DNA from: Himantopus leucocephalus
Lineage: Eukaryota > Chordata > Aves > Charadriiformes > Recurvirostridae
Reading direction: 5' to 3'
DNA: 64,000 bases
Assembly (NCBI GenBank): GCA_003993805.1
Contig: RSEF01000003.1
Location: forward strand, 57,423,857 to 57,487,856
A program made the translations under genes and the position numbers. Below, one piece after another: positions 3,701 to 60,798 of the stretch (position 1 is its first letter; each line of letters opens with the position of its first letter). The notes below the pieces were generated by a model. It did not search any database. It was not told the origin of the DNA and saw nothing but the letters and a program-made list of their open reading frames with translations.

Positions 3701-6700
3701 TGTATGTTAGTAATATTTAATAAGTCTTTTGATAAAGGAGTAGTTTCAAATGTGTGTTAGTCCAAAACAAAAAAAAATTACAAATTTCATTGTGCCTACT
3801 ATACAACCATTCTCTAAAAAGCTTCAGAGACACAAAAATGCTGTCTCTGTAACTGGAAAGTATTGACGTGAGAATTAACACTGCTAAGACTTTAGCTAGC
3901 TTTCATTGCATAACTTTGAAAATTTGCCACCAATAAAGTAGCACTTGTCTTAATAGTTAAGTAGCATTCACAGGGTTTCTTTTGGTCACATGATTATCTG
4001 CACATTTTTGTTAATGGGAGCTCAAATGAGCAACTGAGAAGTACATTGTGATACCGGGTTTTTGTTTCTTTTTCTAAGGCTCCATCTATTAAGTTGCCGT
4101 CCTCAGTATTTGCCACAGAATTTGAAGAAGATGTGGGCTTGTTAAATAAAGCTGCTCCTGTTTCAGGTATCATTAAATCTCTTACTTTTCTGTAACATGG
4201 GTTGCCATCTAGGCACTAGATGGTAATTATGGCTTTGATTACAGTGTCATACTAGTTTTGGTTGAGAACAGGCTCAATAGCAGACATAAAGAAAGATCTA
4301 TGAGAGACCTGTGCTTCAATTTGAGACCTATTTCTGTGATTCACTAATATTAGCTTCTTAGCTTTGCTGGGGATTTATTACTCCCATCTGTTTGAATCTA
4401 AGTCTGGAACTGGATTTTCTCACTCTTAAAATTTCTCTTCTTTTCAAATGCGGAGTGGTGTTTACTTTCTTTCATTAGTATTACTTCAGTGCTACAAGCT
4501 GTAAGTATGCTTTTGTTATGTATCCACTCTTGCACTGAACGTTCACTTACTATCACACAGCTATCTTAATATTTTACAACAGGAATTAATTGTGGTAGTT
4601 CTCTCTGTCCTGACAGAAGGATGTTAAAGAGAATTCTGTTAACTGCAGTAGAGAAAACACTTTCTGGCCTTTTGTAATGTAGGAAATTTTAGGGCGTGGG
4701 AGCTAGGGTTGGTTGAGATATAGTATTCTAACTTGAATATTTTTTCTTCTACAATATTCTAAGTAAAATATATTAAAATACATTCCCCAGAGGTCTTAAG
4801 CTTCCAAAAATGTTCTTTTCTGGATGAGGAAAATAACAAGAGGCTAATGACTTGCCCTGGCTTGTATCAAATCTACAAATATTATTGAGGAATTCTATGA
4901 TTCTTAGGTTTAATCTTTCCTTAGTGCAAATTAACGGTCTAGTTGGATTGGTTTTGATCCAGGAAAGCAGCTTCATAATGTCAGAGAAACTTATATATTT
5001 GTTGGTTTTGTTTTGTTTTTGTTTTTTTTTAAACTTTCTAGGACCACGGCTGGATTTTGACCCTGATATTGTTGCGGCTCTTGATGATGATTTTGACTTT
5101 GACAATCCAGAAAATATTCTGGAAGATGATTTTGTTCTACAAGCAAATGAACCACAGAAAGGGTACATAGAGCTTTGTAGAACTGTTTGTCATATGTAAA
5201 TAGATGCTATTTGTTATTTCATGTATTGTTGTAGGAAGCAAGAGTGGTTTCAGATTCCAAATTGCGTACTTAGGTGTTTTAAAGGAAAAAAGTATTACCT
5301 TGTGTTATGTGGGTGGTAGCTTACAAAACAAATTTTCATGTGTTATGCAAGAGATGGGTTTCATTTGTTGGTTTGAGCTAATGGATTATATGTATTTGTT
5401 TACATGTGCAATGTATGGAATAATGGGATTCTTGAACTATTTAAAACATTACCATCTATCATATTTACAATACATCAGTAATGATATTGAAGGCTAACGG
5501 GTGTTTCCAGAATCTTTACAAATGCTGTACATGATATCCCACTTCATACTGTTCCTTTAGGTTTTGGTATAATTCTCATCATTTTATGAAAAATGGGAAA
5601 TTTTGCTAGTTTTAATGCTCGAGAATGCAGCTAGTATTTTTTTTTTCCACTTTGACATGTATAGCTGAATGTAAACACAACCTCACTCTCAGTGCGCAGA
5701 TGTGTGATCCAACAGTTATCGGATATATCTTCAGCTTTCAGACCAAAGTATTATTATGCTGACTTTGGCAACACTGTTCCGGCTAAACTTGTTTTTCTTT
5801 TATTGGCTTGAAAATAATCACTTTTTATCTTTGCCTTTCCAGATTTAAATATATTATTGCCAAGTTGTTTCAGATAACCCAACACTGGACAGATCTGTGG
5901 AAAGGTCCGTGTATTATTCTAAAATTGTTTTATACTTGTGTTCAGGGGATCAGATGCTGAGGATGAAGATGAATGGGAAGATGTAGAAGAAGATAGTAAC
6001 GAAGAGGATAGTTCTAGTAATGATAAAGACTATGATTCAGAAGGTCCTTTATCAGATGATGGGGTTAATGGACAACCAAAAGAATTTCTTTTTATGCAAG
6101 AAGAAACCAGGAGTCGTTTCACAGAATATTCTATGACATCTTCGGTAATAAGAAGGAATGAGCAGTTAACCCTGTTGGATGACAGATTTGAGAAGGTGAG
6201 GCAGCTCAAGAACGTAACTGTTAAACATAAGGGTGTTAAATGCTTCTTTGTCTTTTGATTCATCTCCTGCATGCCTGTGCAAATTCTTACTGCCTTCAGT
6301 AGTCAGGGCATCAAACAGCTGTTCTTTGCACATATTCCGCATTTCATATTGTGTGCACTAAAAGCCTTGTGTTAAATAGTTTTAGTGCCTGGCCCAAACC
6401 ACAACAGATTGGTAGAGTGTTAATTGCAGATGCTTGAGATTTTGAACGGTAACCTTTTTCCTGAAAGCTTGTAAAGGAATATTAAGTGCCTACTTCAATT
6501 TTTTTTTTTTTTTTTTTTCAGTAATATTTAAATAAAAGGGAGAAACTTTTCTTGTAATAAAGGCCTAACACTGATATAGTTAAACAAAATAATTCCAGTC
6601 ACTATAACGAGCATTCATAGTTGGTGTTACACTTCTGTATGGGAGGCTCAGTTGAACATGGCAAATCACGTACAAGTACCCGGTAAAGACTCACTTATTT

Positions 6701-27733: not shown

Positions 27734-29881
27734 TTATTTGAAGGCATGGTGAAAATGAGGCAACGTTACAGAATTTGTAGTGGATGGAAAGGAGCGAGGA
27801 AGATGATGCAGCTGGTTTATGGCCATCCCACCAGTTGCTAGCTGAAGACCTTGCTGTTGGCCAAGGCCATTCAGCCTGTGTGATGGTTCCTCTGAACCAA
27901 ATGCCATTGTGATGTCCCCAGTAGTATTCTGGTTGTCACCTGGTGGGAGCTGCCAGAAACTCATCACGTGAGTGAGATCCATGAAAGGCAGGCTCGTAGT
28001 TTCAGCTGCTGCTTCTGTTTCCTTGTGCACTGGGTACTTGTTAGTATCCCCTACAGGCCCTGAGGAAGCTTCTTCCAGACTGATTTTGTGGAGAGATTGA
28101 GGTTCTGGTAACGGCAGGTCCTCAAGAAGATGCACATTGTAACCTTTAACATCCACTTTTATGGGTAGATTCTTGAGGGATCCTGCTGCAAATGAGGTAG
28201 AACTAAGGTCGTATTTATTAGGTTGATGAAGGTTCATGTTAGCAGGAATGGCTGTTGAGCATGGTGTGGGATGGACAGCTGGAAGGCTGTCTGCACAGCC
28301 CATCCTTTGCAAATGAGGAGAAGGTTCAAGGGGAAGAGCAGTTTGTAAGCTTGGCTGGGAATGAAGATGTGAACAGTTGTATTCCTCTGATTCTGGACTA
28401 CTCAAAATCCCATTCTGCACAGAGACCCTTTCAGGAAAAGGGGACAGTATGCCGGCATCTTCCTTCAGTCTGAATGGAAAAAGCTGGTCAAGGAGACCCA
28501 CTGAGTCACCGTTCTGCAACCTGCTCTTCAGCAGTTCTTGTGGATGAGTCTTCCTTGTATGGCGAGTCAAGTGGTCCTTCCGCCCAAACCTCTGGGCACA
28601 AAACTGGCATAGAAAGTCTTTGCAGCCTGTGTGAACTACCATGTGACGCCGCACATCTTTACGGGTGTAGAAGTGACGTTCACAGTGGTCACACTTATGC
28701 TTCTTTTCCTTGGTATTACCAGTTGGTTTCCCTGCATGGCTTTTGAGGTGTTCCAACAACACTTCAGTACCGCCAAACTCCTGGGCACATACCCTACAGG
28801 TAAGGTCCCCACTGGTGGCCGCATGAAGAGCCAAGTGTCTCTTATAGCCTAGCTTGGTGTTGTACTTCTTGCCACACTCTTCACACTTGAAGGCCATCTT
28901 GTTAGGGTCATGAGTCTGAAGGTGATTCTTTAGATGGTCTTTCCTGTGAAAGGTTTTTTCACAGTAGCCACACTGGTGAGATTTCTGTGGAGAATGAGTG
29001 GCTGAATGCCTAAGACAAAAAAGAGAAAGAAGTTACTTGTATTTACATTCACTCTAGTACACAGTACAGCTTCAAGACTTGAAAACACTGCCGCTTTTTA
29101 AGGAAGGCATTTTCACAAGTTCTCAGATTATTAGTAAAAGCCTAACTTTTTTTGGGGGGAAGGTGTTAATCATAAAGCATAAAATAGATTAAAACTGCTC
29201 ACCATAATCTTTTTGAGTAGCCACCGCAATTGAGGGAGACTAATTTTCTCCATTTCTACCAAAAGAGGAATAATAAAAACTGGAACTCAGGGATTAACTG
29301 TCACTAGGACACTCAAGAGGAAAAAAAGGTCCTTGCTTTTTTCCCCCCACACCCACCAGAAAAGGAGTGTCTTCAGAGCTGTACCTGAGCAGTTTATATT
29401 TGGAAATGAAGGCTTTTGTGCATCCGTGCTGTGAACACTTGTAGGGGCGCTCCCCTTTGTGCGCGTAAGTGTGGACTGTAAGCTTGTCAATTGAATCAAA
29501 TATCTTCCCACAGAGTCGGCACGGGTAACTGTCTGTCTTCTTCACTTCTTTTCCCTTCAATAGTGAAGACCGGCCATTTCTCCATTTAGGTATAAACCTC
29601 ACAAGAGCATCACAAGCGCTTCCTGAGCTGGCACAGCTAAGCTTTGCAGCAGAGGAACAGGAAATTGTCCCATAGCACTGGGCAATGCTTTTGCCTAATG
29701 TCGCTCCTCTCAGTTTCCCTTTGAGTTTGCTTTTTGCCTTTACAGGTCCCAATTTATTTGGTGGTCTGAACCTGGTGGTAAGGACTCGGTCTTTGTGGAC
29801 GCACTGGTGAGACTCTAGCAGAGTAAAAGTTGCAAAAGTGCTTCTACAGCTGGAACATATCCAAGGGTCTACAGGCTCTTT
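27734..29881 (-). CDS. PLAGL1: PLAGL1 (ZAC1) zinc-finger and C-terminal exons
   Basis: Exons 29881-29385 and 29009-27734 join in phase 2 (AG|G). They encode the seven C2H2 fingers of the DNA-binding transcription factor PLAGL1/ZAC. Landmarks are [10 protein letters not shown] (finger 1), [16 protein letters not shown] (finger 2, split by the intron exactly as in human at LLR|H), [62 protein letters not shown] and [20 protein letters not shown]. The tail ends LPHFHHAFK, like human LPHFHHAFR. The first of these exons is unusual: before finger 1 it carries an extra C2H2 finger (CSSCRSTF, C-x2-C-x12-H-x3-H) and about 90 residues of basic linker. It has no in-frame methionine, and it accepts from upstream PR/SET exons in phase 0. 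The first Met in this pair of exons is at 28897-28895, after finger 3. Mammalian PLAGL1 is an imprinted growth regulator; imprinting is not expected outside therian mammals. Confidence 0.97.
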
Positions 29882-31474
29882 CTGCAATGAGAACAGAAAC
29901 AGGTCTTTCTTAATAGCTGTTCTAAGGAAAGATCATATTCTTCTCACTGACCCTACATCTTCTCCTGGGCTTTCCCAAGACCTGTCACTGTCCCTAGTGA
30001 TATTTACTTCAATATACTACCATACAGCTATTCGGCTGGAAATGGATTCTCTCTAGGACTCTACAAACTAGAAGGAAAATACAATGGTTGGCTAAATACT
30101 GATTTCCATGTTTTTGCTGAGCATTTACTGTAACAGTCCTGAGTCCTTCACCTTTGTTTATCTGTGCTTACTGAATTTCAAAGTCTCTACATTTGTTCCT
30201 TTTATGGAATTAATCACAAAAGCAGTTTCAAATTGTACTTTATCCTTAGACTGACATAATTCATCTGCCACTGCAACCATACAAAAATTGCACGGGTTTC
30301 TGCACAGAAATGTAGTTTAGCCATACAGGATTTCCTTACGTTTTGGGCTGACTCCGTATTTTACCAGACGGTAATGGTTAATGCCTTAAGGAGAGACTTC
30401 CTCACTTAGCTTGACATTTGGCATTAGACTTTCTTAAACTCGGTAAGAAACACCTGAGGGTTGCAGATCTCAAGCCTATCCTGACTTAGAGGCATTAAAA
30501 TATAAAAGTTTTTTAGCAAGCAATGCATTATTGGAAGTATTATTTCTGTGGAAATCAGTACTCTACTGGATTTACCTGAATTCACTTTAAATATTGACAT
30601 TTTTAAAATTCCAATGAAAAACAATTACAAAAAAAACCCAGTCACTGATGAAATGTACTTCCAATTAATACACAACCCTGCACTTCCTTAGCTGTCTCTA
30701 AATTTTACTTCAGCTTCTCATAAACTGTCCTTACTTTCCCTTGCTCTTGGGCTAGCTTGCTCCGGCGAACATGGTGAGGGTATGTCCACTCTGTCTTTAT
30801 TTACAGACAGAGCCCTCCTCTACCTTATCTGTGTCTGATGCTGTGGCCCTCCCACCCATTCTTTCTGGGGTATACTCTAAAGCCCTCATATGCAAATGCA
30901 ACAATGGGGTTACTTCTCTTCCTGGAGCACCTCTCAATTCCTGGTTCTATCATATTCCCTGTTTAACATTTCCTTCTAGCGTAAGTATCAATCTTCACAG
31001 TCATGTTTTCGACATTTATGAACTTTTCCTATCAGTTTAAGGATTCCTGCTATCATATAGAGGGGAAGGTACTGGGATTAGAAGAGAAGGGTTACTGCAC
31101 AGGAAAGACTGAAATAATTAGTGCATTATCTGACCAACCAATCAGAGCCTGACAAAGAGGAACTAGAGAAGGAAGTCTGAGGCTGGACAGCTTGGTTATC
31201 TACAAATTAATGCCAATCTTAAGTGTTTCCAACACATCCCACTGGTGCCACCCACTTCTGGCTATATCTAATGGCTCCATTGGATTGAAAACACAGGAGA
31301 GGAAGAACAGCCTTTCTCTGAGTAGCTGTTCAGTTAAAAATGCTCTTGGGGTTGTGTTAGCCTACTACTCTACGGTCTCCTCTGGCATCACCAGAGTTAC
31401 ATAAACAGAGAAAGCATGTAAATTGTAATTTACTATGTCTGGTGATGGCTTGAATGCAGATTAGGGGTACTTAC
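29882..31474 (-). other. Intron of the PR/SET-PLAGL1 gene
   Basis: The interval runs from the donor GTAAGTACC (complement of 31466-31474) to the acceptor TTCTCATTGCAG (complement of 29882-29893). It holds several short open frames with no recognisable domain. Nothing else is seen. Confidence 0.7.
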
Positions 31475-34400
31475 TGCTACTGGAGGCAAAGGACAGACAT
31501 CAGATTCTTCTTTAATGAAGACTGCAGAAGCTTCCATAAATTTGGCATAATCGGCGGCATACCATACTTTCAATTCTGTGTGGGGTTCAATTGGCTGTGA
31601 ATGGAAGAAAATAGCACATGTTTACTTTTGCCAATTTTCCCTATACCAAATAATACTGAAGATTGGAGGGCGGTGTGTGTGCAATTTGTCTCCTTATCCA
31701 AGTTGCATTCTTTGAATCTGTTTAAATTGTTGGTAACACAGTTTGACAACTCAAGCACTTTTTGAGCATAACTATCCACTAGGCTTTGACACCTTCAGTG
31801 TTTCTGAAAGCAAAAATGTTTTGGGGGACAGTAGCAGGACGAGTGCCTCAGCCTTCATGACCTTTGCTCAGTGAGATCTATTTGTCTGTGATATCCAGAC
31901 ATCCAGCAGTCTTCCCAAGCAATATTCTATGACTATTCCTCCATGTTTCAGAAGCCCAATGAACGCAACACTTAGCTATAGAGTACAGGCAAAGGAAAAA
32001 TGCATTGTGAATGCATGACAGTTTGAATGCCTCCTGATGTGTTGCACTCACAGAGCATGGGTGCAGAGTTGATCAATACGTGGACTGCAAGTCAAACTTG
32101 CATGTTTCCATATGCTGGCTCTAATGTGGCAGGCTCGCTATGTATGTGCTTTATTGTACATCTGTCCTTTCACTGAAGCCTCCCCACACAGTTCTAAGGG
32201 AGCCCATAATCTGCAGTCTCCCATCCAGTCGTGCCTGCCCAAATCTTTCCTTGGACTGGACTATGACCTCCTCTGACAAATACTTTCAGTCAATAATACA
32301 GCAAATAGAGAGGAGTGATTACACTCACTGGTTAAAGATCCATTAGTTATTTAAAAGCAAAGGAGAAAACTAACGTTGGGGTCATGATTTATATGACTCC
32401 CTGGCCCTGTACATAATTCTCTTCATTCATAATAAAAAACAACATTGCTGCAACAAGAGTAGAGCCAATCTGCACCGTACTTGTAGTTTTATTTAAACTG
32501 AACTAAACTAAATGTGTGCCACTAGAACAAACAAACTAGCCTGGAAGGAGAACAGCTGAGTCTTATTCCACAAAATGTGACATCTTAAAATGCACTTATT
32601 TTTTAACATCAGTGTTGGATAAGCATGGTAGGTGAAAGACAACTTAGATTGTGAATGCTGACAGGTGACAGGTAATTGTGTGTGTAATGTTGAAAACTGA
32701 ACTTTTGAACTCCCAAGCACAAGCCTGCTTGCTAACTACAACCAGTATGGGTTGGCTGTACATTTTGGTAACACCTGGCCTAAAAAGAAATGGTATGTGC
32801 TGAATTCTCCACTCAGTAAAGGACATGAAGCAGAGCCACCTACTAGGAGGCCTATCATGCATTGTGCTCTTGCATATAGTCTATTTAGATGCAGAAAACC
32901 AAACCTGGGGAAGCTCCACAGAGACAACTGCCTGGGGATGCCCTGGGACCTTGGCCAGTGACACCTGAGACTGGTACCCACAAACAGCTGCACAGCATGA
33001 TACTGTCATGACCTTCTGCCTGACATTCCTGGACCAGCAGCAGTCTCCTCTGTGGGAAGCTGAGACCTAGTCGATGTGACTTTGGAGGGAGAGCAAAGTG
33101 CATCAGTGTGAAAAATAGTCAAGTAAGGTAAAAGCTCTAATCTCAGTAAAACTGACATTAAACACCAGTTTTCAAATCCACTACAAGTTGTCCTTTACAC
33201 TGTCTCACCTGTGACAATAAGAGAAAGCTATGGCAGCACCCATGTGAAACTCTCCTGTGATCAGACAGACAGCAGCCATGGATGATTTTTACTTCGTCAT
33301 AATTCTATACTTTTTTAAAGCACTGCAGTCATTAGGTCAGCAAGTATGCTAACCGTGCTATTAGTATGCCACTTACATGTATGCTTTCGTAGCTGCACTT
33401 TCATTTCACTGAAATCCCCTATCTTTGTAAAAACAGTGGGGAGAGGAGCCAATCCTTCTACTCCCAACTTAACAGACTTTATCTAAAATATCTTGAGACA
33501 GTATCTTCATAATCAGCCCTAAGGCAGCCTCATGCCGTGGCCAGCAGGGTGTGTCTAAGTGAAGCAAAAGGCTATCGCTTTCGCTGACCAGGACAAAACC
33601 TGCACGATGCCACAGTACTGTGAATGATTCTGGGAACTAGGAGAAATAAAACCAAAGTAATTCCCTATGACACACANNNNNNNNNNNNNNNNNNNNNNNN
33701 NNNNNNNNNNNNNNNNNNNNNNNNNNNNNNNNNNNNNNNNNNNNNNNNNNNNNNNNNNNNNNNNNNNNNNNNNNNNGTTGGATAACCCTTTCAGTGAAAA
33801 AATTTTTCCTAAAATCTAAATATTCTTTTTTTTTTTAATTTTTAATGTTGCTTACAATGACATACAAACATTAACTTAAGAATAAAAAAGAAAACCGACG
33901 GATGTTCAACATACAGACTTCAGTTTCCTAAGTGTACAAAAGAGTAAGTTCTGATTAAAACAAGCTTTGCCTGAGAAAGTGGCCAAAACAACAAAAAAAA
34001 GACTGTATGTTCCAGTGTCATTTATAAATACAGAGTACTTTGTTCTCCCTCCTCAGACCAAGACACAGCCCAGAATCTCTAACAAAATACTGCAATGTTG
34101 CCATGAAATGCTCAGTTTATAAGTTCTGCAGTTAAGTTTTCAGATTTAACGAGAGCTGAAAAAAGTACATAAAGATTATACCTAGCACCCTGCTCCTGAG
34201 CACCTGGTAATGTGCTCAGAATACAACGTGTGTCCAAAAATGTAATAAAGGAAAGGAATGTGTGTGTTCTTTCCAGGATGAAGTACTGTTGAATGTAACA
34301 GTACTAGATAATCTCACCATGTATCTATCTGGAACTGAAGAACTCTACAACATTCATGTTTAAACACTGCCATCATCAGTGATATTTCTGTTTCTCTCTG

Positions 34401-37400
34401 CTCAGTTTCTTCACTACCCACAACAGCAAGTACACACTGCCTTTTACTGGAAAACCCCATACACTGCTTGCTTTACTACGGATTAAGTGATATAAAAGGT
34501 GGTACGTAATAAAGATCCAGTTGGCAGAACGTAATCAATCTTTCATCTGTAAAGGGATTAGCCTTTCAGAACCTTTGCCTATAAATTTCCATTGGGATGA
34601 CGGGTGAAGCAATGTGGGTTTAACTACCTTAACAGTTGTGAAGTAGACTTCTCCACAGTGCTGATAAGCCACAAGAGTCTGTTCTTCTTGGTTCCGGGCT
34701 AGCCGGACAAACATCATCCAGTTTCCACAGTCTTCATTGGGAGTGTCCAGAAAGTACTTCCCTCCATCTTTCAATACCTGAAACAAAGTGGGAGGACAGG
34801 AGAAAGAACATGATAAAACCAAGTCCTGTAGAGAGGCACATTAGTTTTCTTTAACTTGGAATCATGGCTATCAGTTATTTACCCTGTCTTGATCATATAT
34901 GTCCTTTGAAACTGTGGTTGTTTTGAAATAGATCACTCTTAAAGAATACTGAGTGCAAAAGAAAGTGAAGAACGAATACCTGCTGAGGCACCCAGCTACT
35001 AAAATAACTGTAGGCCTTTGTATGTATTTCCAGTTTATAGTTCATAATTTTTAAGTTATATAAAGATAATATTATAAGAACTAAGTGCAGGCAGGTAGAA
35101 AGATAAGCTTTATGCCTTAATGTACTTCCTGAGTACTTGATAATCTCAAACTTTAGTGCTGTATTAACGCTACATTTTGCATGGAACAATTGTGTAACTT
35201 GTGTAATAAGTCCAGAGAGGTAACATACAATATAATGGCATTTTAACAGTCTTCTCTTTTTCCCCTTAACAATGCAAAAGTAAATACAAATGAACGATCG
35301 TGCCAGAAAGATCTTTCTTTTTGCTTTACTTCATTCTTCCTAGATACCTTTCCAAGAGAAAGCCTCTACGAGGCAAACACTCCCAACCTCATACAAGACA
35401 GTTGCTTTTCTGCAATATAGTCTCAAACACGGACAACTGAAGCTGCACAACAGATGTCAACGCAGCATGTATCTGTTCTACTAACCATGTAAGTGAGCAA
35501 TTAATTGGAAAAAGAAAAGTTGCATTTCCATTGCTTCTGGGAACTATTTTATCTAACTTCGTCCTGTTTCCAGTGAAAACAACTGCCTCTTGGACAAGTT
35601 TGGTGACATACTCAGAATGCTGCTAGGGAGAAGTCAAGGCACCTACTGCTGTCATGTACAAAACCTGGGACTCTAGTCTCTTCTTCTGAAGAAACGGTCC
35701 ATTCATCATCGAGAGCCGTGCTTATCACTGTATACTTTTAAGCAAACAGGGTTGACTGATAGAGGATAGGGTGTGGTTTACAATGGCTTGGTGAAGAGGA
35801 AGGAACTGGGTACTTAGCTCATCCATGTTTGCAAGCTTGTTAGAGAAGTATGTTTCTGCATTTGTAAGAATTAAAGTGTCTCATAAAAAGACGGAAGAAA
35901 TTTAGTTACGGAAAAGAACAAATCCTCTCTGGTGCCAATGAAAAATGCCATGAAAATCCCACAGAAGGACACTGTTACTTTCCTGGCAGACCATTCACAT
36001 GACTTCTATGAGCAAATGAAGTTCACAGCAATTACCGAAGCTATTACTTTTGCTCTCAAACAGAATTACAGAAGTATCTGTATCTATGCCTTCCTCCGCA
36101 ACACACAGTGTTTTCCAGTCTCAAGCTTCTGGAGAAAGCTCAAATGAAGACATAAAGCATGTCACGGGACAGCTGCTGCTGGTCCCTCTCCCCTTGTGGG
36201 TGAGAGGGCCTGATATGAAATGCAGGCTCTGGAAGAATGGTGACCTGTTGGGAAGTCCTGACGGAGGCTGTGGCTTCACCACAGACTCGCTGTATGATGG
36301 AGGGGTGTGCCCAGGCATCATCCCATGCAGCAAAATGCAAAGACCAGGGTGTAGAGGATTACGATCAACTATCATTCCCAAGGAATTCCTGTGGGAAAGG
36401 ATGTGCATGTGGATATGTCTCAGCTACGTTAGTCCTGAGAGGCCACTATTTGTGCTGGATAAAGTACAAACAATAGTATCACGGTCCAGATGAAACGATC
36501 AGTATCTGCACACGCAGCAAGGGATGGTACCAGCCCTAAATAACAATCTAACTAAACTGAGTCAGTGCACTGTGTGTCAAAGTTTATATATAATCACATC
36601 ATTAAGAAGCATTTCCCCATCCCCGCGCTGTTCCTCCCTACTAACCAGGTGCCTTAGTGCTTATTTCTGCCACTATTGCTAATTCAATGCACAAACTTAA
36701 CCCTCCCAGCGGCAAGAACAAATTCTTCTGTTTTATCTGGGAAGACAATACTATCGTTGGATGCTTTCAGTAGCCGTGCTCTGTGAAAAGTTTATCAAGA
36801 GCTGTTAGTCTGATAGGTAAATCACCCTGGAAGTGGTAAAACCAGAAAGCAGGAAAGTAAACTTGTAGAAAACACAATATACAGGAACATTATGGTACTT
36901 CAGGTTACACTGTGCTAATAATGTGATTTACATTCATACATACAGATGAGAAGTACAATTAATTAACTAGATTAGATGGCAAGCTGACTGGTTAAAATAG
37001 ATAAATACGTACGAACTGTTAAAGGCATATATGCACTTCATAGTAAGTCACTGGGTTTTTACCTGCAGGACTAGCCTGCTCTCATCATAGCGGGTCAGTT
37101 TTGTAGACAGTTGACCAACATAAGGACCAAACTGTGTTCTCTTCTGTATTACTTTCTTTGCAAAGACTCCGAGGACTGTGAATAAAAAAAGACCAGTATA
37201 ATATTAATATAGACACCACAAACTATTTCTTGTGTATTTACAGTTGTGAAAATGGAGATAAACACATAGTGCAGAACACATGAATTCTTCTTCTAGACAA
37301 ATAACCCAGGTAAATAATTCTAACGGGAAGAATCTAAAAAGGATGTAAATATGTACAGAGATTTTTTAAAAATGGGTATTACATTGAATTCAGAAGTGCC

Positions 37401-38221
37401 TAAAATCCGCGACACAACAGGCATCTCATCATTCTCTTTCTGAAATGCAATCTTGGTAGGACTAATTTTACACAGGTAGCTGTGGAAAATTCACACACTA
37501 AGGATGTAGTTCCCTTGTTCAAGCTTGGGCATTCAAACTGCCCTGCCCTCAGAAGGAAACAACAGTCTTTCTATAATATGAACTGAAGATGCTGCAAAAA
37601 GTAAATTAACACGCTCTTTTGTGTGTTCTTTTGAGTTTGCAGGGAGTGTGTGAGGGATCTTATTTACCACTTTGTTTCTGACCTCTTATTGAATACTCTT
37701 TTCTGTTTTGCATGCTTGGGGAAAAGAAAAAAATATGTAATAGGGCATGGCTGTTACTATTAGATACAAATTCAACATTCTTTAAATTTGTATTGACTGA
37801 ACAGAGCTAACTGATTGCTCAAAGCTAAATGTCACACCAGCTCTGGCTAATGTCCTGCCATCAGTCTATGCATTGAGGTTACTAGAAATCAGTCATAAAA
37901 ACCAGTAGCTGAATGTGAGCTTTATCTGTGCTCAGCTGAAAATAAAGTAGTCTTCATACTGTTAATACCCAATGATTATACCTTGAGTTATTCATGAAAA
38001 CAAGCTAGTGTTAGTACTTTTGTCTCCTCTTTCTCAAATGTGGGAAAAAGAACTAAAATACTTACTCTGCTGGTTTCCAGCTCGTAGCTCCAACACTCGC
38101 AAAGTGAGGTAATGAGGTAGGGTGAGACGGGCTCGGCTAGGAATAACCCTATCTTTAGCCCTGATGAGTGGTCCGTGGAGTTTGCATTCTCCTATAAGGC
38201 TTTTACCGCAGTCCTCACACC
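31475..38221 (-). CDS. PR/SET domain exons (PRDM10/15-like) upstream of and in phase with PLAGL1
   Basis: Four exons, 38221-38066, 37175-37063, 34777-34628 and 31594-31475, have clean AG/GT borders and consistent phases (1, 0, 0, then 0 into the PLAGL1 exon at 29881). They encode CEDCGKSLIGECKLHGP (a C-x2-C-x7-C-x2-H zinc knuckle), SRARLTLPHYLTL, GVFAKKVIQKRTQFGPYVG, LDTPNEDCGNWMMFVRLARN, LVAYQHCGEVYFTTVK and ELKVWYAADYAKFM. These are the hallmark blocks of the PR/SET domain of the PRDM10/PRDM15 group (compare the family motifs RTQFGP, NWMMxVRPA, AYQxGxxVYFTT, ELxVWYAA). PR/SET domains can be lysine methyltransferases or protein-interaction modules; activity here is unknown. Final residues SDVCPLPPVA precede the donor GTAAGT and continue into [12 protein letters not shown] of the next exon. 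I infer one gene with PLAGL1. It could also be a separate PRDM-like gene spliced to it only in some transcripts. Confidence 0.88.
33677..33776. other. 100-N scaffold gap
   Basis: A fixed-length gap of unknown true size. It lies in the intron between PR/SET exons 34777-34628 and 31594-31475. Because the flanking exons join in phase 0 and the protein blocks are contiguous with the family (VYFTTVK then PIEPHTELKVWY), no exon appears lost. Confidence 0.99.
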
Positions 38222-41200
38222 CTACAAACCCAGAAAAGGGAACCTGTTACTAAAAATGACATACTGCTCTCCAATTTAGTCTCTTCTAATTTTGTCACCT
38301 TGAGAACACATCTTGAATTACCAATGCTTTTCTTCACGCCATTGTTCTACATTAGGGAGTGAAAAGATTATCTGCAACCCAAAACTGAACTAGGTTTGAA
38401 ATAAGACCTCCAGTTTGTGCATCCTCTCCTGTGCAAATTGGTGGGTCCTGACCTCCAAAGATTTATACACATGCTCATTTGGAGGCGTCGCAAACCATGC
38501 CTTTGAAGACTAGGATGGCAGCAAAACTGGAGCTTGCAGCATGCACACCTAAAAATCAAGGTGCATATATTTATATAGAAATGAGAAGGGCAAAGTTGCT
38601 AGCAATAACCAAGGTAATTTGCAGAGATCCAAGGAGTCCAAGAAAGCTCACTATGAGCCTGTACAGAGCATTCTCAGTAGAAGACAAGACCCTCGGTGTA
38701 CCATGAATGAGTATGATGGGTCTTACAGTCACAACTCAGTTGACAATCATGGGCAGCCTTCTCATAGACTGTGCTGCCTGTGGAAGTAACCAAAAGGGGC
38801 ACGCTGCATCTCCCAGGCATCAGTTCACAACCATGATATCTGCAGGCTGAACACACGAAGCATCCAGAAGTCATTAATGAGAAATACATGTCTGCAAACT
38901 GACTTTCCCCCAGCACAGTGAGATATTTTTGGTTCAGTGTAGCTCAAATTGGTTGCCAGGGAAACTCATATGGAGCAGTAACACAACTGAGCAATGAGAC
39001 TCTCCAGCAGAAGGTCATCCAGGCACTGGTGTCACACAGGGCGATGGGAAAAATGGGACTGCTTGCACAAAACCTTTTTATAGACAGTAGAAACCAAACC
39101 AGTGAGTCAACAACACTTTACGACTGAGTTAAAAGGAAAAGCTGATATTGGTCATCCATGACTACCTAGTTTTGTTTTACTTCTGAAAACTCCGCTGAGG
39201 AAGTCTATTCAGTAAGCAACAATAAGGAGCAGAGGAGGGGAGCCAGAACAGCCAAGAGAGTCCAAGGTAGCCATGGGACGCTGTAGCAGAGACTGGGGCA
39301 GGAGAGGCGAGGCTTCACCACAGACAGGGGCTCATAGCCAAAGAGAGGTCAAGAGAAGTGTAAGGGCTCAGGGGAGGCATCTGAGATGGTCTTTTGAGAA
39401 AGGACAGTAGCACCATAAATGCCATGTTCAGGGTAGCTCAAAAAGGTTTCAGTTTGTAAACACAAGTAGGTGCTTGACTAAATTACACACCTCGAGAGTC
39501 TAGTGCAAAATCTCCCCAAATAAGCCTGCAGTGTTCCCACTGAGTTCTTTGGGCTTTCCATCAACTCTAAATGAGGAGGCAGACTTGTGTGTTGGTCAGG
39601 CTGCAGGCACTGCAGTAGTCCCTATTTTTCAATAATTTGGGGACCATGTAATAGCTTTTTTCAGCCATGGCTCCCAGACTATACACCTGCACTATGAATA
39701 GCTAAAATACATGATTTTTTTTTGCTAGTGCTACAGATAAAGAACATGCCACTCTACAGCCATCACTTAAAATGCACAAAAAATAAATAATACAGCTGCA
39801 AGGCAGATTTTTCTCGTTACACACTGTTTTATGTACCTGAAAGTCCTCTACAGCTAGGCTGCAAGAAAAAAAATATTGTATTGGTGACTTAACTTAATTG
39901 GCTTTTAAATAAATTGCCAACAATCTATGTCTTCTGAGGGCAACAAAATTATGAGGGCTTCCTGAGCTTACCTAGAATAATAGAGACTTTGTCTCAAGTT
40001 AAACAGCTCCTGCTTGGAGAGTCATTGTATGCAAACTGCCAAAAAACATTACCAAAAGCAAAATGGGGACAAAGAACCACAGTTAGAGGGAGGATGTATC
40101 TAATCGTAAAGTACACGACCTTATCAATCCATGCCATGCCTCTGTGATTCATCACTACCGAGCTCCTGAGCAAACCTTCCCACTGCCCCGGGGTAGTGCC
40201 CGACGTGGAGGCCCCAGGGTGGGCAGTTCACGGGAAGGCTGGAAAGGGAAAGAAGGGAAAAAGGGTCTCCCTTACATTGGCCTCCAAAATTGGCACTAGT
40301 GCCCCATTAGCTAACCTGCCTTGGTCTTCTAGATCCAAGACGTAAGGTCTGAAATGATTCACGTGGTGTGGGTGCTGGAGAGGCACTCCTCCAAAATCAG
40401 GGACCGCTTTGCATCCGAACAGGTGCTGAGCATGCCACCGAGCTTAGCGGCCCCAGAGACGGCTCCCCAGGTGGCACACCTTACTGGAATGATGAAGCCA
40501 TCAGCTAGCATTGATTGAAATTAGCTGCAGAGCTGGAAGTGGTTTTTAAGCAACCTGCTAGTACAGCTTGGAATTTTGACCTGGCATCACTGCGTGGCAC
40601 CTTGAAATATCCAGAGCTGCCCAAGGCTTGTTCTACGATTTTCTGTGCTTCATTACACGGGATATGAAGATAACGAGATGATTTAGTTATTTAACAGGCA
40701 TCCCGGAATTACATTCACTACACAGTATTTCTGACCCCACACCGGCATGTTAGTACTCTGACTCTTTATTTACTGCACAGTAAAAATTGCTAGGTGTGCC
40801 AGAAGCACAGGACTGGACCACTGTAAATATAATAACTTTATGGACTACCCTGGGGAACAGGGTAATTTCTTCCCTCCAAACTAAGAGTGCAAAACTGTCA
40901 AGTTTACATTCTTCCTCAGAGATAATTACAGACCAAGTCACGATCCTTCGTATTTCAATGCTAAATTAGAGATGCCATTGGTGAAGGAATGTATGCATTA
41001 TCGTAGCTGCAGCATGGCACCGGTTTGCAAAGCTCACACAGATTTTATGCCTCCTTTCAACTTGGCTGCTTAAGTAAAACGTAGTTTTTTCAACAATAGC
41101 CTCAGAACACACTCTAACCTGTTCTGAAGTATGGAGCATCCAGCTACAGAAACAACACACACTTTGTCATATTAGCACTAGGAATTAAATATACTTGGTT

Positions 41201-44200
41201 AGAAAAATCGCTTTCTGTGAAGATTTTTTTCTGCTTTTTGTTAGGCAATTTAGTACATCACTTGATGCTTTTACAGTTTCCCTGCTCCCCTAAATTCTAC
41301 TTGCACAAACAAAATTAATGGATTCAATGTCATGTTTACAAGAATACTTGATAATGTGCAAGCATTCAAGAAAAAGACTGCCTCCGTTCCTTCTCTTTGC
41401 TGTGACTTAGATGAGCAGGCAACAAAAAGAAATAAACAAGATTCACAGGAGTTACAAGCTGTTAAAAACCAGATCACATCATTTACTTTATCTTTAGAGC
41501 AGCAGTGCTATATTGTCCCCTAGAGGGTATTTCTTCATTCTTTCTCGATGTCTTTGCAATGGTTCTGAAAAAGTTCCAAATAATGCCTTTTTTATCTATC
41601 TGTAGATAAAACTACACAAGATAATAGATCTTGTAGCTGGTTAAGATTTTTTATTTTGCTGAACCCCAGCGCAGCAGTGGGGAGGCACGCATAAAGAAGA
41701 ACCCAGCACAGGTGCAGACTCCGACCGGGTTGCGGGTGCGCAGCCTCCACCTTACCACACGGACAAGGTGCTCATGCCCTGCAAACCGCCGCTGGACGGG
41801 CTAAGAGAAGGGTATATCTACTGTATGCCCCCAGCTTGGTACTTCTGCACCTGAATGCATCTGCTCCCACTTCTGCCCTGCCATTGGGAGGCATGGTGGG
41901 CAGCCTTGCTTCTTCCCTGCCCTTTGGGTCACTGAAAAAATGACACCCACTGCCTGCAGGACGCACTCCCACCTCATGGGCTGACCAAAACACCGGCAGC
42001 CATGATCCCAGGGAGGAGAATGGGCTGTGAGTGTGGCTCACCTGTACTGTCCTCACCATGCTGGTGCCTTCCCCAGTCCAGGTCTAGGTGACAGCTCTCC
42101 TTTGCTGCAGACTACACCCTGGCAGCCTTGGCGGCCAGCTTGCCTCATCCTCCAGATGGCTCTGCGGCCAGCCACGCTGCACGGGGACAAGCTCCCACGG
42201 CCAGCAGTAGCCAAGCTGGCGCAGCAGCTCAGGCAAGCTGGACTCGAGCACAGTTAACAAACTCGAGTTTCCAAAACAGCAGCACCGTCCAAGCGCCGTG
42301 CCACCCCCACAGGCACAAGCCCGGCCTCGGGGAGAGCTCATTAGCGTGGGCAAGGAGCCACAGGCTGCGGTTACACAAAGTCCGGCTGCAGAGATAACGG
42401 GAGCTATACATAGCCATACTAGGAACTGCAATCACTGTCGTGATAGCTCCAACATACCACCAGCTCCTTAACCAATCAGCGGCAGAACACCACTTTTTAA
42501 AAACCAGTTTGCTAAAAACTAGATGCCTATCAGGCAGTCCTTCCTGCTTTCTCCAACCTCTACTTTCAAGTAAGACTTTACACTATCTGAACACTCCAGT
42601 GGCCCACAAGACACCTGCGGTATGATTTACATGCCCCTGTGAAGGCAGAGGTAGATTACTCCTTTGAAAACGTCCCCTTTGAGCAAAGACGCCCTTGCGA
42701 GAAATGACCGTCCGGCTGAGCAGCGCTTGACATTTGCTGTGCTGTTTTGCAGCATTTAGAATTAGCTCCCGTGCGCAAAGGGAACAAAGATCAGTGTACA
42801 CAGCAGTCCAAATCCCAGCCTAATTACAATCATAAGATTTGCATAGCAAACAACAGTAATTTATCCCAGAGTAAAACTGTACTGCCCCGTTAGCCTTGCT
42901 CAGCTTTCACGTAGCGGAACGCTGCATACATACCTTGTGGACATTTACTGCCTAAGATACATTGCACGCGCAGTATTGCCAGTCTTGGTTCTTCTTACAC
43001 AAAGGTACATGAGGATTTCCTGCCCTGTGGTTTGCTCTGCAGCACTCCTTGCTGGAAAAGCTTGAAAACCTTGTTCTACAGTATAATTTATTTGGCAAAA
43101 ATTCAAAGTGCTCAATTAGCAAACAGTTAATCCCAAGTTATTTTCCCATTATTGTGGGCCACTGCCACACATTTCTTCTGTAAAAAACATTTATGAAAGA
43201 AGCCTTACATGTCCCAAGTTTGATGTGCAAAGTGCATTTACAAAAGAGCTGAAGCTCTTAACTGATTAATAATTAATCCTATTTACATTGTGGTAAAATA
43301 GAACTTGTTATAATTACCAGAATTCAAAATGATTTTATTCAAATCCCATTAACCTCTGATATTTTGTCATGCTAAATTTTCTACTCATTTTCACTTTTTA
43401 ACTGTAATAACTGATCCCTAGTCCAACACAAAAATAGGTGAACATTTCTTCAGTGTCTCCTTTTCACGTCTCTTCTATCGCATACAACAGAACCTTGTAT
43501 TAGCAGAGAGTTACAACTGCTCAGCTCTGCACAGAAAAAAAAAATAAATAATCAGGAAACCACTCTCCAGGATGACTTTACAATCTGAGGAAAGACTGAA
43601 AACTTGCACATTCATGCACCATACAGCCCATTATTTGGGAAGCAGGTTTTGTATTTTTCATAACCCCGCACCCAAAATAACACTCCCAAAAAAAACAATC
43701 GAGGGTGGGGGAGATTTACTCCCTAAGTGCTTGAGAGGGAAACTTTCAATAGATTCCAAGCAATGAATTCCCACGTCTTTGACACAGGGAGACCCTGAAG
43801 CCTCATAGTCTCTACCTGGTAGCACCATCGCAGACACTGTGGGACATGCTGCTGGGGGCACACTGGCTCCCTTTCCGAGGCCTTGTGCGGCCGACTACCA
43901 GCCCCGGGCTTGCAGGCAAGTGGACCAGAGCCACTGAGATGCTGGTGGAGGGGGAGGAGGAGGAGTCCTGGTCCTGCGCAGGGGTAAGCAGCACCCTGTG
44001 AGTGAATGCCTATGCCTTTTTGGGGGCCTCCTCTCCCCAGGGAGGAGAACAGTAGGTGGTTTGCAAACATCCCAGCAATCATTCTTAACATTTAACACAT
44101 TTATAGGAACATGACCTCATTCTACTAAAATGTAAAACTTAAAAACTGAGTTACTATATTTGGAGACAGAAACAGAGAAATAAAACAACAAACATGCATT

Positions 44201-45029
44201 ACTGCCACTCCATACGTTCAGTCAGACCGGCACGTTGAGCTGATTCCCTAAAACTGGGACTCGGCACTGCAGATGAGCCCAGCCTTTAGACATCCTGACC
44301 TAGACGCTGATCTGCAGTGACACTTTCCTTCACCTCACCTCCATCCTCCCTGTGCCCCTGCCTTCCTTCCCAAGAGGAAAGAAGATTCGGAGGGAGGGTA
44401 CATTCTCAGGTCTCCAGCAGTGGAAGATCATCCATCAAGACACTTGCCTTACAGCAGTACGATCCTGTCCAGCACAGCTGTTCTCATGGAAGGATGCCTC
44501 TAGAAGGGAGGCTCAACACTTATCTGACTATAAAGAAACCTTCTAAAGCAAAGCGCGCATGCATTTTCCTGGCAGACATGAGTTTAAGTATGTAAACTCT
44601 TCAGAATTCTGAAACTATTTGTTAGACAAACATATAAATGATAACGACGACTATGATTCATTACTAGTTCCTAACAGGGAGCAATCATGATGAGTCGAGC
44701 ATATCTGGGAACAGTAAGTTTTTCGCCTGGTGACCATGAAGTACTATGACAGCACAGCCAGAAGGAATTTAACCAGCCTTCCATAAAGAGTCATCCTCCC
44801 ATCAACCCCAACAAGGCTTTCTACCATGGTCCTTCATCTAGCAGATCTTAGCAGCAAAACAGTTAGGGAAGCCTCAAGGAGGGCAGACAGGCTGTGAAAT
44901 CTGACAATGTGACTGCACACAGCAGCTTCAGCAGGTTCCCATGAAAAGCCTGTGTAGCAGAGGACACCTGTGGTCTGCTGTATCTTACAAATTTCACAAC
45001 CTGGAGGAAAAAAGAAACCCACAACTTAC
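38222..45029 (-). other. Large intron upstream of the PR/SET exons; no other gene seen
   Basis: If the microexon is real this is one intron of 6.8 kb. A moderately GC-richer patch at 41.68-42.40 kb carries long open frames on both strands, but without conserved domains or splice structure. There is no LINE, tRNA or rRNA signal by eye. Confidence 0.5.
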
Positions 45030-45075
45030 CTTCATTGTTTGAACACCTGAAAGGGCAGTAACTTGTAGGACTTTC
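45030..45075 (-). CDS. Candidate 46-nt microexon upstream of the PR/SET exons
   Basis: On the minus strand a long pyrimidine tract and TTTGCAG acceptor precede 46 coding bases, followed by the strong donor GTAAGTTG. The frame reads ESPTSYCPFRCSNNE and ends with one base (G) that combines with the GG opening the exon at 38221 to give a Gly codon, leading into CEDCGKSL. The two extra cysteines add to the zinc-knuckle region. Phase, acceptor and donor all agree, but the exon is short and 6.8 kb from the next one. The start codon was not found and must be further upstream. Confidence 0.5.
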
Positions 45076-49187: not shown

Positions 49188-49342
49188 GCACAGACACTTT
49201 GAAGCAGGTTCGCAACACAAAACCAGCAATTCCTACTTGCACAACAGCAATTATTCCGTTTGCACGCACAGACACTTTGAAGCAGGTTCGCAACACAAAC
49301 CCAGCAATTCCTGTTTGCAAGACAGTGATTATTCCTTTTGGA
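49188..49342. repeat. 78-bp tandem duplication, two copies
   Basis: Copies begin at 49188 and 49266 with GCACAGACACTTTGAAGCAG and share GGTTCGCAACACAAA, CCAGCAATTCCT and ATTATTCC. They differ at several positions, and no n separates them, so unlike the n-flanked cases this is a genuine local duplication. Confidence 0.85.
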
Positions 49343-52140: not shown

Positions 52141-55100
52141 AACCAACTGATCATTAGGGAAAGCATGAGAGAGGTGCTGAGCTGAAGAGAGAAAAATTAA
52201 ACTGCCAGGGCATAAATTAGCTGAAACAGTCAAACTAGATTAAACATCTGAGTTGAGGAGTCTTAAGTGATTCTGACCAGGACCACTGCGCAGTCACCCT
52301 GCACTCTCTTTAACGTTTCACTCCTGACAGCCGTTTTGCCTGTTGTATACAATACAGTCAGACATATTACATTCCTCATCTTAAGAGTTCTACCTGTATC
52401 TAAATGGCACTTAAGCATGCCCAAAAATTGCCAGTTAGCAGATAAAGCTCAAAAAATGCACTTTCACAAATAACTTGAAATACGGACATCACCTCCACAG
52501 ATAGCTGCTATCTGCCAGTCTGCCACTAATGTTTTTATATTTATTAACAGATTACAGTTATTGACAAAAAAAAAAATACTTGTTTTCCTTGTTCCCGTGA
52601 GGAAGTATTGGACACTGAAAAAATGTGTTTCTGAAATTCCCCTCTCTTATACTGCACAGTGTGCAGTTGGGCAGCCCTCGGAGGCAATGATAAAAAATGG
52701 CAGCTGAGGCACTGGAGGGACTCCAAAAGAAAGCACGTAGGTCAGATCAATAAGCATAGAAAATGTGCTTAATGCTGCAGATAGCCTAGGCTGGAGCGAG
52801 AGCAAGTGAGTATCAGGGAGACTTGAGCGGCATTTTTTTTCGGTAGTTACAACAGCAAAGTATAGGAATATGCCACTTGTATATTCTCTGCTGTTGAAAA
52901 AGAAGGATGGATAATAGTGATGAGGAGTGAGATTTGGATGTGACTTGGATAATGATGCCTTGGAAACAAAGGAGTTAAATTCACAAAGTGATTAAAAAAC
53001 TGCAAGCACATCACTCAGTAGTCATCTGGGATGGTATTTGTACCAAAGATAGATAAAACATTTTAGATAGAATTCTAATTTTTTAAGTCTCAATGAACCA
53101 GTCTGTTCTTATACATGGGCCAGATTTTTACAATTTTACTCATATTAAGTCATGCCTTACCCCAAGAATAATCCCGTTGATTATAATGGTAATATTGTTC
53201 CACAGATGTCTCAGAAGAAACGCAAATGTAAAAGCAGACTTTATACTTAAGATAAAAGACATCAATCATGAGCACATCTGGGAATCTGATAAAAACATAC
53301 GGTACAAAAAAATCACTGTGGGATGACAGAAATGTACTTACATAGCAGGTCTGTGGACATGTTTACAGATCAGGCAAAGGAAACCTACATAAAATAAATG
53401 AAAAAAGAATGATCAGTTTTCTGAGCTAGCACTATTCGTGTTTAAACCTCATGCTCGTTATCATACGCATAGTTTTTTAGTTCTTTAGGAAATGAGGAAA
53501 ACATATCTAGGGAAATCGGACAAGGAGGGATTTCAATTTGTGGAAGAACAGAGTAAATATATCTATTTTTTATTCCTTAATAAATTGTTCCATTTCACAA
53601 ACAATGTGGACTGACAATATTAATGTAATACCTTTTAATTAAGAGCAATTCACTGTATCCCCCATCTTCATTAACATTTATTATTAAAACAGAATTTTCA
53701 GACGCCATATATTTTACCCCATTGCATGACATTTTTTGTTTAAGTCTGCTATTTCTGGTATTCATCTTAACAGTCCTCACCCTTGCAAAATCAAAGGGAA
53801 TATTAACTAGATAGATACAGGACAAGACATTTTATTTGCTCTCTTGAAAGACTCCTGGAGACTTCTAGCTTTGTGCTGAACTCTGTTCATCTTGTTCTCT
53901 TCCCATTCATCTGCCGGTTTTTGACCGAAATTTTACTATAAGCACATGGGACCACAGTCTGTCTCTTCTGTAGCTGTCTGAGCAGCCTCCAGCACAGTGG
54001 GATCCCAATGTGTGGATAAGGCTAGTTGGAGCAACAGAAGTAATAAGGCATGTAATAATAAGGGGGCATACAAATAACAGTACGAATCACATCAGCTTAT
54101 GCCATTTTGTTGCGTCCTGTACAAGTCTTGAAAATTTCAGGCGGTGTTCAAAGGTGTATGTATATGACTTCAGGTGAAAACTTGACTCTGATGAAGACAA
54201 CGGTATTTTGTCACTGACTGAAATGGGTCAAAGACAACATCTTCATTTTTAGAAACACAATGATCGTTAGGAAGATGCTTCCAAACTAATTGGAGTTGGT
54301 TGGGAAAACTGAGAGGAGTATGGAAGAAGGCAAAAAAGATGTCAGAAAAAACGGATGGCAAAGAATAATGAGAACTGAGAAGGAAACAGACTCAAGGGGC
54401 ATAAAGAAGTGGTAAGGTAAGGTGAATACAGAGCACGATGAGGCAGAGGAGTCAGTGGCCTGCTGATGAGAATCTGCCAAGGAAGAAGCTGTGACTCTGC
54501 CACGTTGTCCACAAGCAGGAAGAGGAAGCTGAGATCCAGCTCTCTGCTGAAACCTACAAGCACAATGTAGTGCCATTTTCAAGTTTGAGAAGACTAAGAT
54601 AACACTTCTAGTGATCCATTGTAAGCACCTAAGTTGCTGTCTTAGCTTGAGGACATGCCCTTTGTCCCCTCATACAAAAGCAGCCATGCTGAGCATTCCT
54701 CCCAGCATTTACTCAGCAATGATGTACATACAGATCATCATTACTGGGCAATGTAACAGCTATGCCAATTACATTAGCAAGTTAACAACCGATGAACTTA
54801 CATATCCTCATTTAAGTGCTCACAGACCCAATCTCAAGACTAAGACACAAAGATAGTACATCAGACTTGGTATCTTACCGTGCGTCTCATCACAACATAA
54901 GATAACCCCCAAGGATTTAAATTGTCAATCCTAGCATAAGAGACAGTATGTAAAGAAAATAAATTTTATAGATGCTCTGCACTCTGGAATTTGGAAGAGT
55001 TCCGATGTCGAAATATAAAGAGCAGTCTGGTCTTTCCGTCCCACATGCTTAAACATGTCTTTCAAGCCTATGCTGCCTTCACCAGACGGAAGTACAAGCT

Positions 55101-60269: not shown

Positions 60270-60566
60270 TTATCATGTAAAACAGCACATACTTGTACTT
60301 TTACAAAATTATGTATTTTTTCAAACCATTGAATTATTTTATAATTATAAAACAGAATAACTCTTTTGCCATCATAATATTTTTCTTTATGTACGGGATT
60401 CTACACCTTTCCCTNGATTTATCACGTAAAACAGCACATACTTGTACTTTTACAAAATTACGTATTTTTTTCAAACCATGGAATTATTTTATAATTATAA
60501 AACAGAATAACTCTTTTGCCATCATAATATTTTTCTTTATGTACAGGATTCTACACCTTTCCCTTG
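60270..60566. repeat. Assembly-type ~145-bp duplication around n at 60415
   Basis: The stretch with AAAACAGCACATACTTGTAC, TTTTATAATTATAAAACAG and GATTCTACACCTTTCCCT occurs once before and once after the single n at 60415, with a few substitutions and one T-tract length change. Likely unmerged contig ends or two haplotypes placed in series. Confidence 0.8.
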
Positions 60567-60798
60567 ATTAAGCAAAGAACTTGAGCAGTACAACACACAT
60601 ACACTTGTGTCCCTGATCCAGAAATCTGGCTCACTGATATTGCAGGAGTTCTTCAAATGTAAGTCTTATTTGTGAATGTAAAAAATAATGAAAACCCAAG
60701 ATTATATATGGAGCATCTCTTTCTTTTACAGAGGACTATGCAGATGTAAAAGAACAGTGCACAAAATCGTAAGGCAGACTGTGGGTAGACAAAGTGAC

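Follow-up and report, generated by a model that had tools for sequence, protein, structure and literature searches.

The 64-kb window studied here is a stretch of 64,000 nucleotides from the bird Himantopus leucocephalus (contig RSEF01000003.1, positions 57,423,857 to 57,487,856). It contains LTV1 (plus strand) and PLAGL1 (minus strand). The predicted coding sequence of PLAGL1 consists of seven minus-strand exons with a frame open over 776 amino acids (aa), and the domains of the protein follow each other in the order zinc knuckle, PR/SET domain, finger 0, seven PLAG fingers and tail. The features of the locus are:

53342..53384, minus strand: start-codon exon (coding part 53360-53342), ATG at 53360, MSTDLLW; donor GTAAGT after 53342 (ATGTCCACAGACCTGCTAT followed by GTAAGT)
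Immediately before 53384, minus strand: TTTATGTAG, candidate acceptor of the start-codon exon, leaving a short 5' untranslated region
38066..38221, minus strand: PR exon 1, N-terminal zinc knuckle C-x2-C-x7-C-x2-H and first part of the PR/SET domain; phase 1 in, phase 1 out
37063..37175, minus strand: PR exon 2 (LGVFAKKVIQKRTQFGPYVGQL...), phase 0 out; Tyr at the PRDM9 Y276 equivalent
34628..34777, minus strand: PR exon 3 (NWMMFVR...EEQTLVAYQ...VYFTTVK), phase 0/0; Phe at the PRDM9 Y341 position
31475..31594, minus strand: PR exon 4 (ELKVWYAADYAKFM) and linker, phase 0/0; Tyr at the PRDM9 Y357 equivalent
29385..29881, minus strand: finger 0, linker and PLAG fingers 1-2; PLAG finger profile positions 1-49, expect value (E) 1.8e-20
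27734..29009, minus strand: last exon, PLAG fingers 3-7 and tail ending LPHFHHAFK, stop; PLAG finger profile positions 45-201, E 2.7e-96
4837..5199, plus strand: LTV1 exon inside an open frame, used as synteny marker; Pfam LTV PF04180, E 2.2e-8

The internal exon borders of PLAGL1 are AG/GT throughout. An initial annotation of this DNA had described the four PR exons, with end phases of 1, 0, 0 and 0 and in frame with the PLAGL1 exons, and this was borne out, as no stop interrupts the frame into exons 29881-29385 and 29009-27734. The span given there (27734-45075) includes six coding exons but not the start exon at 53360-53342. The latter was located by a search for the N-terminus MSTDLLW, which is identical in the PLAGL1 proteins of ostrich, alligator and green turtle; allowing up to two mismatches, a single site with none was found, and it joins exon 38221 in the required phase 1. 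An ATG at 45035, with a donor six bases on, was rejected as the start because it enters exon 38221 in the wrong phase. Exon 29881-29385 does encode PLAG fingers 1-2, as had been stated, but upstream of them it also carries finger 0, an extra zinc-finger-like motif (WICSSC...ESHQCVH).

For the profile scan all six frames were cut into 2224 stop-free segments of at least 20 aa. The PR-domain profile matches exactly four of these at E<=1, and these are the four PR exons in exon order (from 5' to 3', profile positions 7-59, 59-98, 95-153 and 143-170, with E of 1.1e-25, 1.1e-14, 1.9e-25 and 2.5e-9). These values are flattered, because one of the eight sequences in the profile is the PR domain of the window itself. 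Independently of this profile, Pfam reports PRDM2_PR (7e-38) and SET (1.5e-7) in the window protein, which confirms the full PR/SET domain proposed at the outset. Among PDB chains the PR domain matches PRDM10 (8.8e-25) and PRDM4 (1.9e-24) by sequence and PRDM10 (1.7e-37) by profile. The zinc knuckle in front of it (WCEDCGKSLIGECKLH), likewise part of that proposal, is of the PRDM9/PRDM11 kind, although its alignments are weak (PRDM11 chain E 0.0045, PRDM9 chains E 0.08-0.14). With an N-terminal PR/SET domain and C2H2 fingers behind it the protein has the layout of the PRDM family. The PLAG finger profile, which was built without the window, matches both last exons, and the one other match at E<=1 is due to chance (0.73). 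The window fingers reach 394.6 bits over positions 1-201 of the seven-finger profile, and the tail LPHFHHAFK agrees with the PLAG-family ending LP(R/H)FH(Q/H)AF. Orthology to PLAGL1 is indicated by the position of the window protein in the tetrapod PLAGL1 group of the finger tree (support 98/95) and by LTV1 at 4837-5199, which adjoins PLAGL1 in human too. We have little doubt that the window gene is a bird PLAGL1 in its ancestral form, a single gene with a predicted PRDM-type product of 776 aa.

Proteins combining a PR domain with PLAG fingers, here called PR-PLAG, are widespread. A search with the joined window protein gave 530 matches, and among the best 120, which were listed, at least 26 proteins (26/120) contain a PR/SET Pfam domain. 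The carriers among these matches belong to birds (two clusters of 609 and 400 sequences and an ostrich isoform), alligator, turtles, sharks, lamprey, amphioxus, acorn worm and echinoderms (sea stars, sea urchin, crinoids and sea cucumber); the lamprey protein has part of the PR domain only. Most of these predicted proteins bear the automatic names PLAGL1 or PLAG1-like. A query with the amphioxus PR domain (best 120 of 702 matches) added proteins from Lingula, Owenia, Lineus, Mizuhopecten, Solemya, Haliotis and Tegillarca, and a query with the Lingula PR domain (65 matches, all listed) added one from the katydid Anabrus simplex, an insect. PR domain and PLAG fingers are thus joined in a brachiopod, an annelid, a nemertean, molluscs and a katydid among the protostomes. 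Eight protostome proteins score 180-253 bits on the seven-finger profile, built from seven PR-less vertebrate PLAGs only, and the 17 PRDM10 and PRDM15 proteins score at most 86.5 bits in their best stretch, with whole-protein sums of up to 134.9. With skate PLAG1 the katydid protein has 54% of the finger region in common, as well as two short tail motifs. The nemertean and alligator proteins form one colinear match of 593 columns, and their knuckle, PR domain, finger 0 and seven fingers are identically ordered. The proteins named 'PRDM10' in Lingula, 'PRDM15-like' in Lineus, 'PRDM9-like' in Haliotis and 'PLAG1' in Mizuhopecten have PLAG fingers. Proteins from Platynereis, Batillaria, Capitella, Aplysia, Bulinus, Littorina and Ixodes were rejected as PR-PLAG candidates; they behave as PRDM10 in the finger profile and the PR tree.

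No PR-PLAG from squamates, ray-finned fish, coelacanth, lungfish, frogs or mammals is found among the best 120 of 702 matches to the amphioxus PR domain. The same matches do include lizard PRDM15 and ray-finned fish PRDM10, and those to the Lingula domain include PRDM15 of frogs, snakes, coelacanth and lungfish. This non-appearance is weak evidence for absence. Among the best 120 of the 530 matches to the joined protein, a few of them nameless, none bears a squamate name, and squamates may have lost or shortened PLAGL1.

PRDM9 has all three active-site tyrosines and is not known to carry PLAG fingers. At the positions of its Y276, Y341 and Y357 the window protein has Y, F and Y. We compared 32 PR-PLAG sequences, leaving out the unnamed 478-aa match P0264 here and in the trees; the knuckle motif occurs in 27 of them. 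The Y276 position is occupied by Y (14), F (11), L (5), H (1) or V (1), with Tyr in 14 of the 15 gnathostome sequences. At the Y341 position F is found in 29 sequences, including the window, and Y in three, while Y357 is conserved in 31 and missing in one isoform. The catalytic roles of the PRDM9-type tyrosines are treated in PMC9861158 and PMC4749557 (statements on papers cited by PMC number refer, here and below, to the parts available). The PR domain could be an active lysine methyltransferase, the protein writing histone marks at PLAG sites. The window keeps Tyr at Y276 and Y357, whereas PRDM15 retains Y357 only (PMC9861158, and also in the sequences used here), and with two of the three tyrosines present catalysis is still possible. 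However, Phe at the Y341 position is nearly constant among the PR-PLAGs, and several members of the PRDM family seem to be catalytically inactive (PMC4749557). We consider full methyltransferase activity rather unlikely and partner binding likelier, because one of the three active-site tyrosines is Phe in the window.

PLAG fingers bind GC-rich target sites and the PLAG tail activates. At such sites the PR domain might bind a chromatin-related or corepressor partner in the way that Mtgr1 is docked by the PR domain of Prdm14 (PMC4749557), and the long form would then act on targets in ways closed to the mammalian short form. In both proteins a PR/SET domain without shown catalysis would serve as a docking surface beside DNA-binding fingers. 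PRDM14 is not known to be a close relative, and a partner of the Mtgr1 type is suggested for the window protein by analogy only.

The PR tree comprises 52 sequences and the finger tree, rooted on PRDM10, 58. From the former 12 sequences without a complete PR match were left out, and two others were restored by a hand rule; the variable middle of the PR domain was cut by rule, which also removed long bivalve inserts. In three bivalves (P0127, P0130, P0134) such an insert splits the PR domain between the QFGP and the NWMM half. From the finger tree 15 sequences without a full seven-finger match were omitted, including five of ten PRDM10 and all seven PRDM15 proteins. The initial annotation had classed the PR domain as PRDM10/15-type. 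The domain is indeed related to both but groups with neither. The deuterostome PR-PLAGs cluster together in the PR tree (91/85), with sauropsids, then sharks, then amphioxus on one side and acorn worm and echinoderms on the other, while PRDM10 (96/89) and PRDM15 (100/99) are separate groups. Forcing the window PR domain into the PRDM15 or the PRDM10 clade was rejected (approximately unbiased (AU) test, p 0.000305 and p 0.000558, respectively).

In the finger tree PR-less PLAG1 and PLAGL2 form one group (95/94). The group beside it (83/76) unites the PR-bearing lamprey, shark and sauropsid proteins with the PR-less PLAGL1 of mammals and salamanders. PR-less proteins are in this way nested among PR-bearing ones. 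None of the vertebrate PLAG1, PLAGL2 and mammalian or salamander PLAGL1 proteins tested has a PR domain, which means absence from the predicted proteins. The PR state changes three times on this tree, or four times if the PR-less white shark model is taken at face value. These changes are best read as losses, because the PR domain is present in PRDM10, protostomes, echinoderms and amphioxus. We infer at least three losses: on the stem shared by PLAG1 and PLAGL2, in mammalian PLAGL1 and in that of salamanders. PLAGL1 of the newt Pleurodeles waltl (P0022) begins at the Met of the old last PR exon and has kept finger 0 without the PR domain, possibly a half-lost state. Both trees fit the vertical descent of one bilaterian gene, and the PR-PLAG architecture presumably dates to the bilaterian ancestor. 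Judged by these sequences, PLAG appears to be a branch of PRDM in its own right, apart from both PRDM10 and PRDM15. The early idea that this lineage retained a PRDM-type PLAGL1 linking both families stands, as the fused form extends across bilaterians and the PR-less forms look derived.

Several results weigh against an ancestral PR-PLAG gene with a conserved PR domain that acts by docking. At the base of the PR tree the protostome PR-PLAGs are not resolved. The tree also departs from animal phylogeny, with crinoids beside acorn worm (95/71) and alligator beside turtles (89/39). A tree with all 31 PR-PLAG sequences in a single clade is worse by 4.5 log units, though not rejected (AU p 0.10), holding PRDM10 together with PR-PLAG is marginally rejected (p 0.043), and the vertebrate fork of the finger tree has a support of 82/71. 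Conservation, measured as protein-level identity, is lower for the PR domain than for the fingers outside gnathostomes: between window and amphioxus the PR domain is 67% identical, the fingers 76%, linker and finger 0 29% and the tail 24%, and PR and finger identities are 57 and 69% for sea star, 49 and 52% for nemertean and 40 and 56% for katydid. A first AlphaFold model has a predicted local distance difference test score of 27-55 over most of the PR region. A second alignment (16 of 38 sequences PRDM15) gave one good model of a turtle protein, the other four of five being far poorer (mean 65.0 for the best versus 50-51.5 for the other four). Exon 31594-31475 is missing from predicted isoforms of takahe (P0003) and the snapping turtle Macrochelys (P0009). 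The two tyrosines kept in the active site belong here as well.

The missing PR-PLAG clade and the poorly ordered protostome sequences would also suit several independent fusions, each by capture of a PR domain from PRDM10 or PRDM15. We regard this as very improbable: the AU tests separate the window PR domain from both supposed donors, a single PR-PLAG clade is not rejected, and nemertean and alligator share the whole order from knuckle to seventh finger.

It could further be asked whether gene predictors have fused PLAGL1 with an independent PRDM-like gene upstream of it; birds might also use a promoter downstream of the PR exons. But the last PR exon closes with a phase-0 donor and the frame continues into the finger exon, and gene models show this joined layout in birds, alligator, turtles, sharks, amphioxus, acorn worm, echinoderms, lophotrochozoans and an insect. 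Over so wide a range of animals a repeated merging error is very unlikely, and we give this explanation hardly any credence.

A single PLAGL1 gene with a maintained PR domain is also in line with the identities within gnathostomes. Between window and alligator they amount to 94% for the PR domain, 91% for the fingers, 66% for linker and finger 0 and 65% for the tail; between the window and two sharks the respective values are 80%, 76-78%, 26-31% and 30%. The PR domain thus seems to be held about as tightly as the DNA-binding fingers. That the PR exons are a relic, transcribed yet functionless in birds, we consider next to negligible given this conservation and the intact splice sites and frame, even though PLAG1, PLAGL2 and mammalian PLAGL1 demonstrate that the fingers can work without a PR domain and predicted isoforms skip part of it.

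PRDM genes commonly make forms with and without the PR domain. The takahe and Macrochelys isoforms without exon 31594-31475 would give a broken PR fold. Within exon 29881-29385 there is a possible internal donor (GT at 29771-29770, window 29770-29773), at the place where the ostrich isoform P0007 leaves the exon and skips PLAG fingers 1-2. PLAGL1 may produce forms with and without the whole PR domain, because the takahe and turtle isoforms skip a 0/0 exon and the ostrich isoform uses the internal donor. Other predicted first exons are joined to the same knuckle exon in takahe (P0003) and box turtle (P0124). In the sea urchin Diadema (P0037) an extra segment stands right before the knuckle CEDC, where these alternative first exons join, which suggests a conserved phase-1 intron.

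The known PLAG proteins (PLAG1, PLAGL1/ZAC1, PLAGL2) resemble the window protein in their seven C2H2 fingers of the same order, in common sequence stretches, in a tail ending LPxFHxAF and in the neighbourhood of LTV1. They differ from it in that the vertebrate PLAG1, PLAGL2 and mammalian PLAGL1 sequences tested have no PR domain, and the mammalian PLAGL1 sequences examined start no earlier than PLAG finger 1 and lack finger 0. PRDM10 shares the knuckle, the PR domain, which is the best PDB sequence match (3ihx), and a finger soon after it, but its finger array is different and longer. Five of the ten PRDM10 sequences (molluscs, annelid) align weakly across the whole seven-finger PLAG profile, with 66-87 bits, a hint of shared ancestry of both arrays. 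PRDM15 has a PR domain with Phe at the Y341 position as well, but neither the knuckle pattern of the window nor its Tyr at the Y276 position was found in the seven PRDM15 sequences. PRDM15 also has many other fingers.

PLAG1, a tumour and growth gene, and PLAGL1/ZAC1, an imprinted gene that suppresses growth, are regarded as members of a zinc-finger family distinct from PRDM. The initial annotation knew of no description of a PR domain in PLAGL1, and we found none in the available parts of the open-access literature searched, including PMC4991769, PMC2082429, PMC10451705, PMC3507640, PMC8941758, PMC9746021, PMC9861158 and PMC4749557. In the available text of the 2007 PRDM survey (PMC2082429) and of a bivalve survey (PMC10451705) the word 'PLAG' does not occur in a word search. 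A 2016 survey of animal Prdm genes (doi 10.1093/molbev/msv260), outside this scope, may list invertebrate genes as Prdm. However, databases already hold predicted PR-PLAG proteins, mostly named PLAGL1 or PLAG1-like, with PR/SET in their domain lists, and because of this the raw observation is not unknown to machines. By their predicted sequences the PR-PLAGs are a PRDM subfamily so far filed as PLAG.

These data suggest that bird PLAGL1 keeps an ancient PR/SET domain absent from the mammalian version and that the cancer-related PLAG proteins are stripped-down PRDM relatives. Tentatively, and with somewhat less than even confidence, we propose that the whole PLAG family is a PRDM branch with at least three PR losses, and that the lost domain restrained the PLAG fingers or redirected them. 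PLAG1 and PLAGL2, both oncoproteins, and mammalian PLAGL1, an imprinted growth regulator, would then be permanent 'PR-minus' forms of an old PR-bearing regulator that persists in birds, turtles, alligators and sharks. Should PLAG indeed be a branch of PRDM, it is the mammalian proteins that are exceptional, and findings made with their short form may not apply to birds. In a chicken retina study the 673-aa mouse Zac1 was overexpressed (PMC4991769); 'PR domain' and 'domain' are absent from the available main text of this paper by word search. Since orthologues of one transcription factor occur naturally both with and without the PR domain, the contribution of this domain can be tested directly.

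As to the remainder of the window, scanning for motifs of the neighbour SF3B5 gave no match. With cut-offs of GC > 0.5 and CpG observed/expected > 0.55 in 500-base steps, a CpG-island-like stretch occurs only at 1-1500 and none near the PLAGL1 start exon, and therefore the promoter may lie outside the window. Four two-copy tandem duplications, either real or assembly artefacts, are located at 3370-3590, 21411-21696, 49188-49340 and 60268-60569 (78-150 bases, 89-98% matches).

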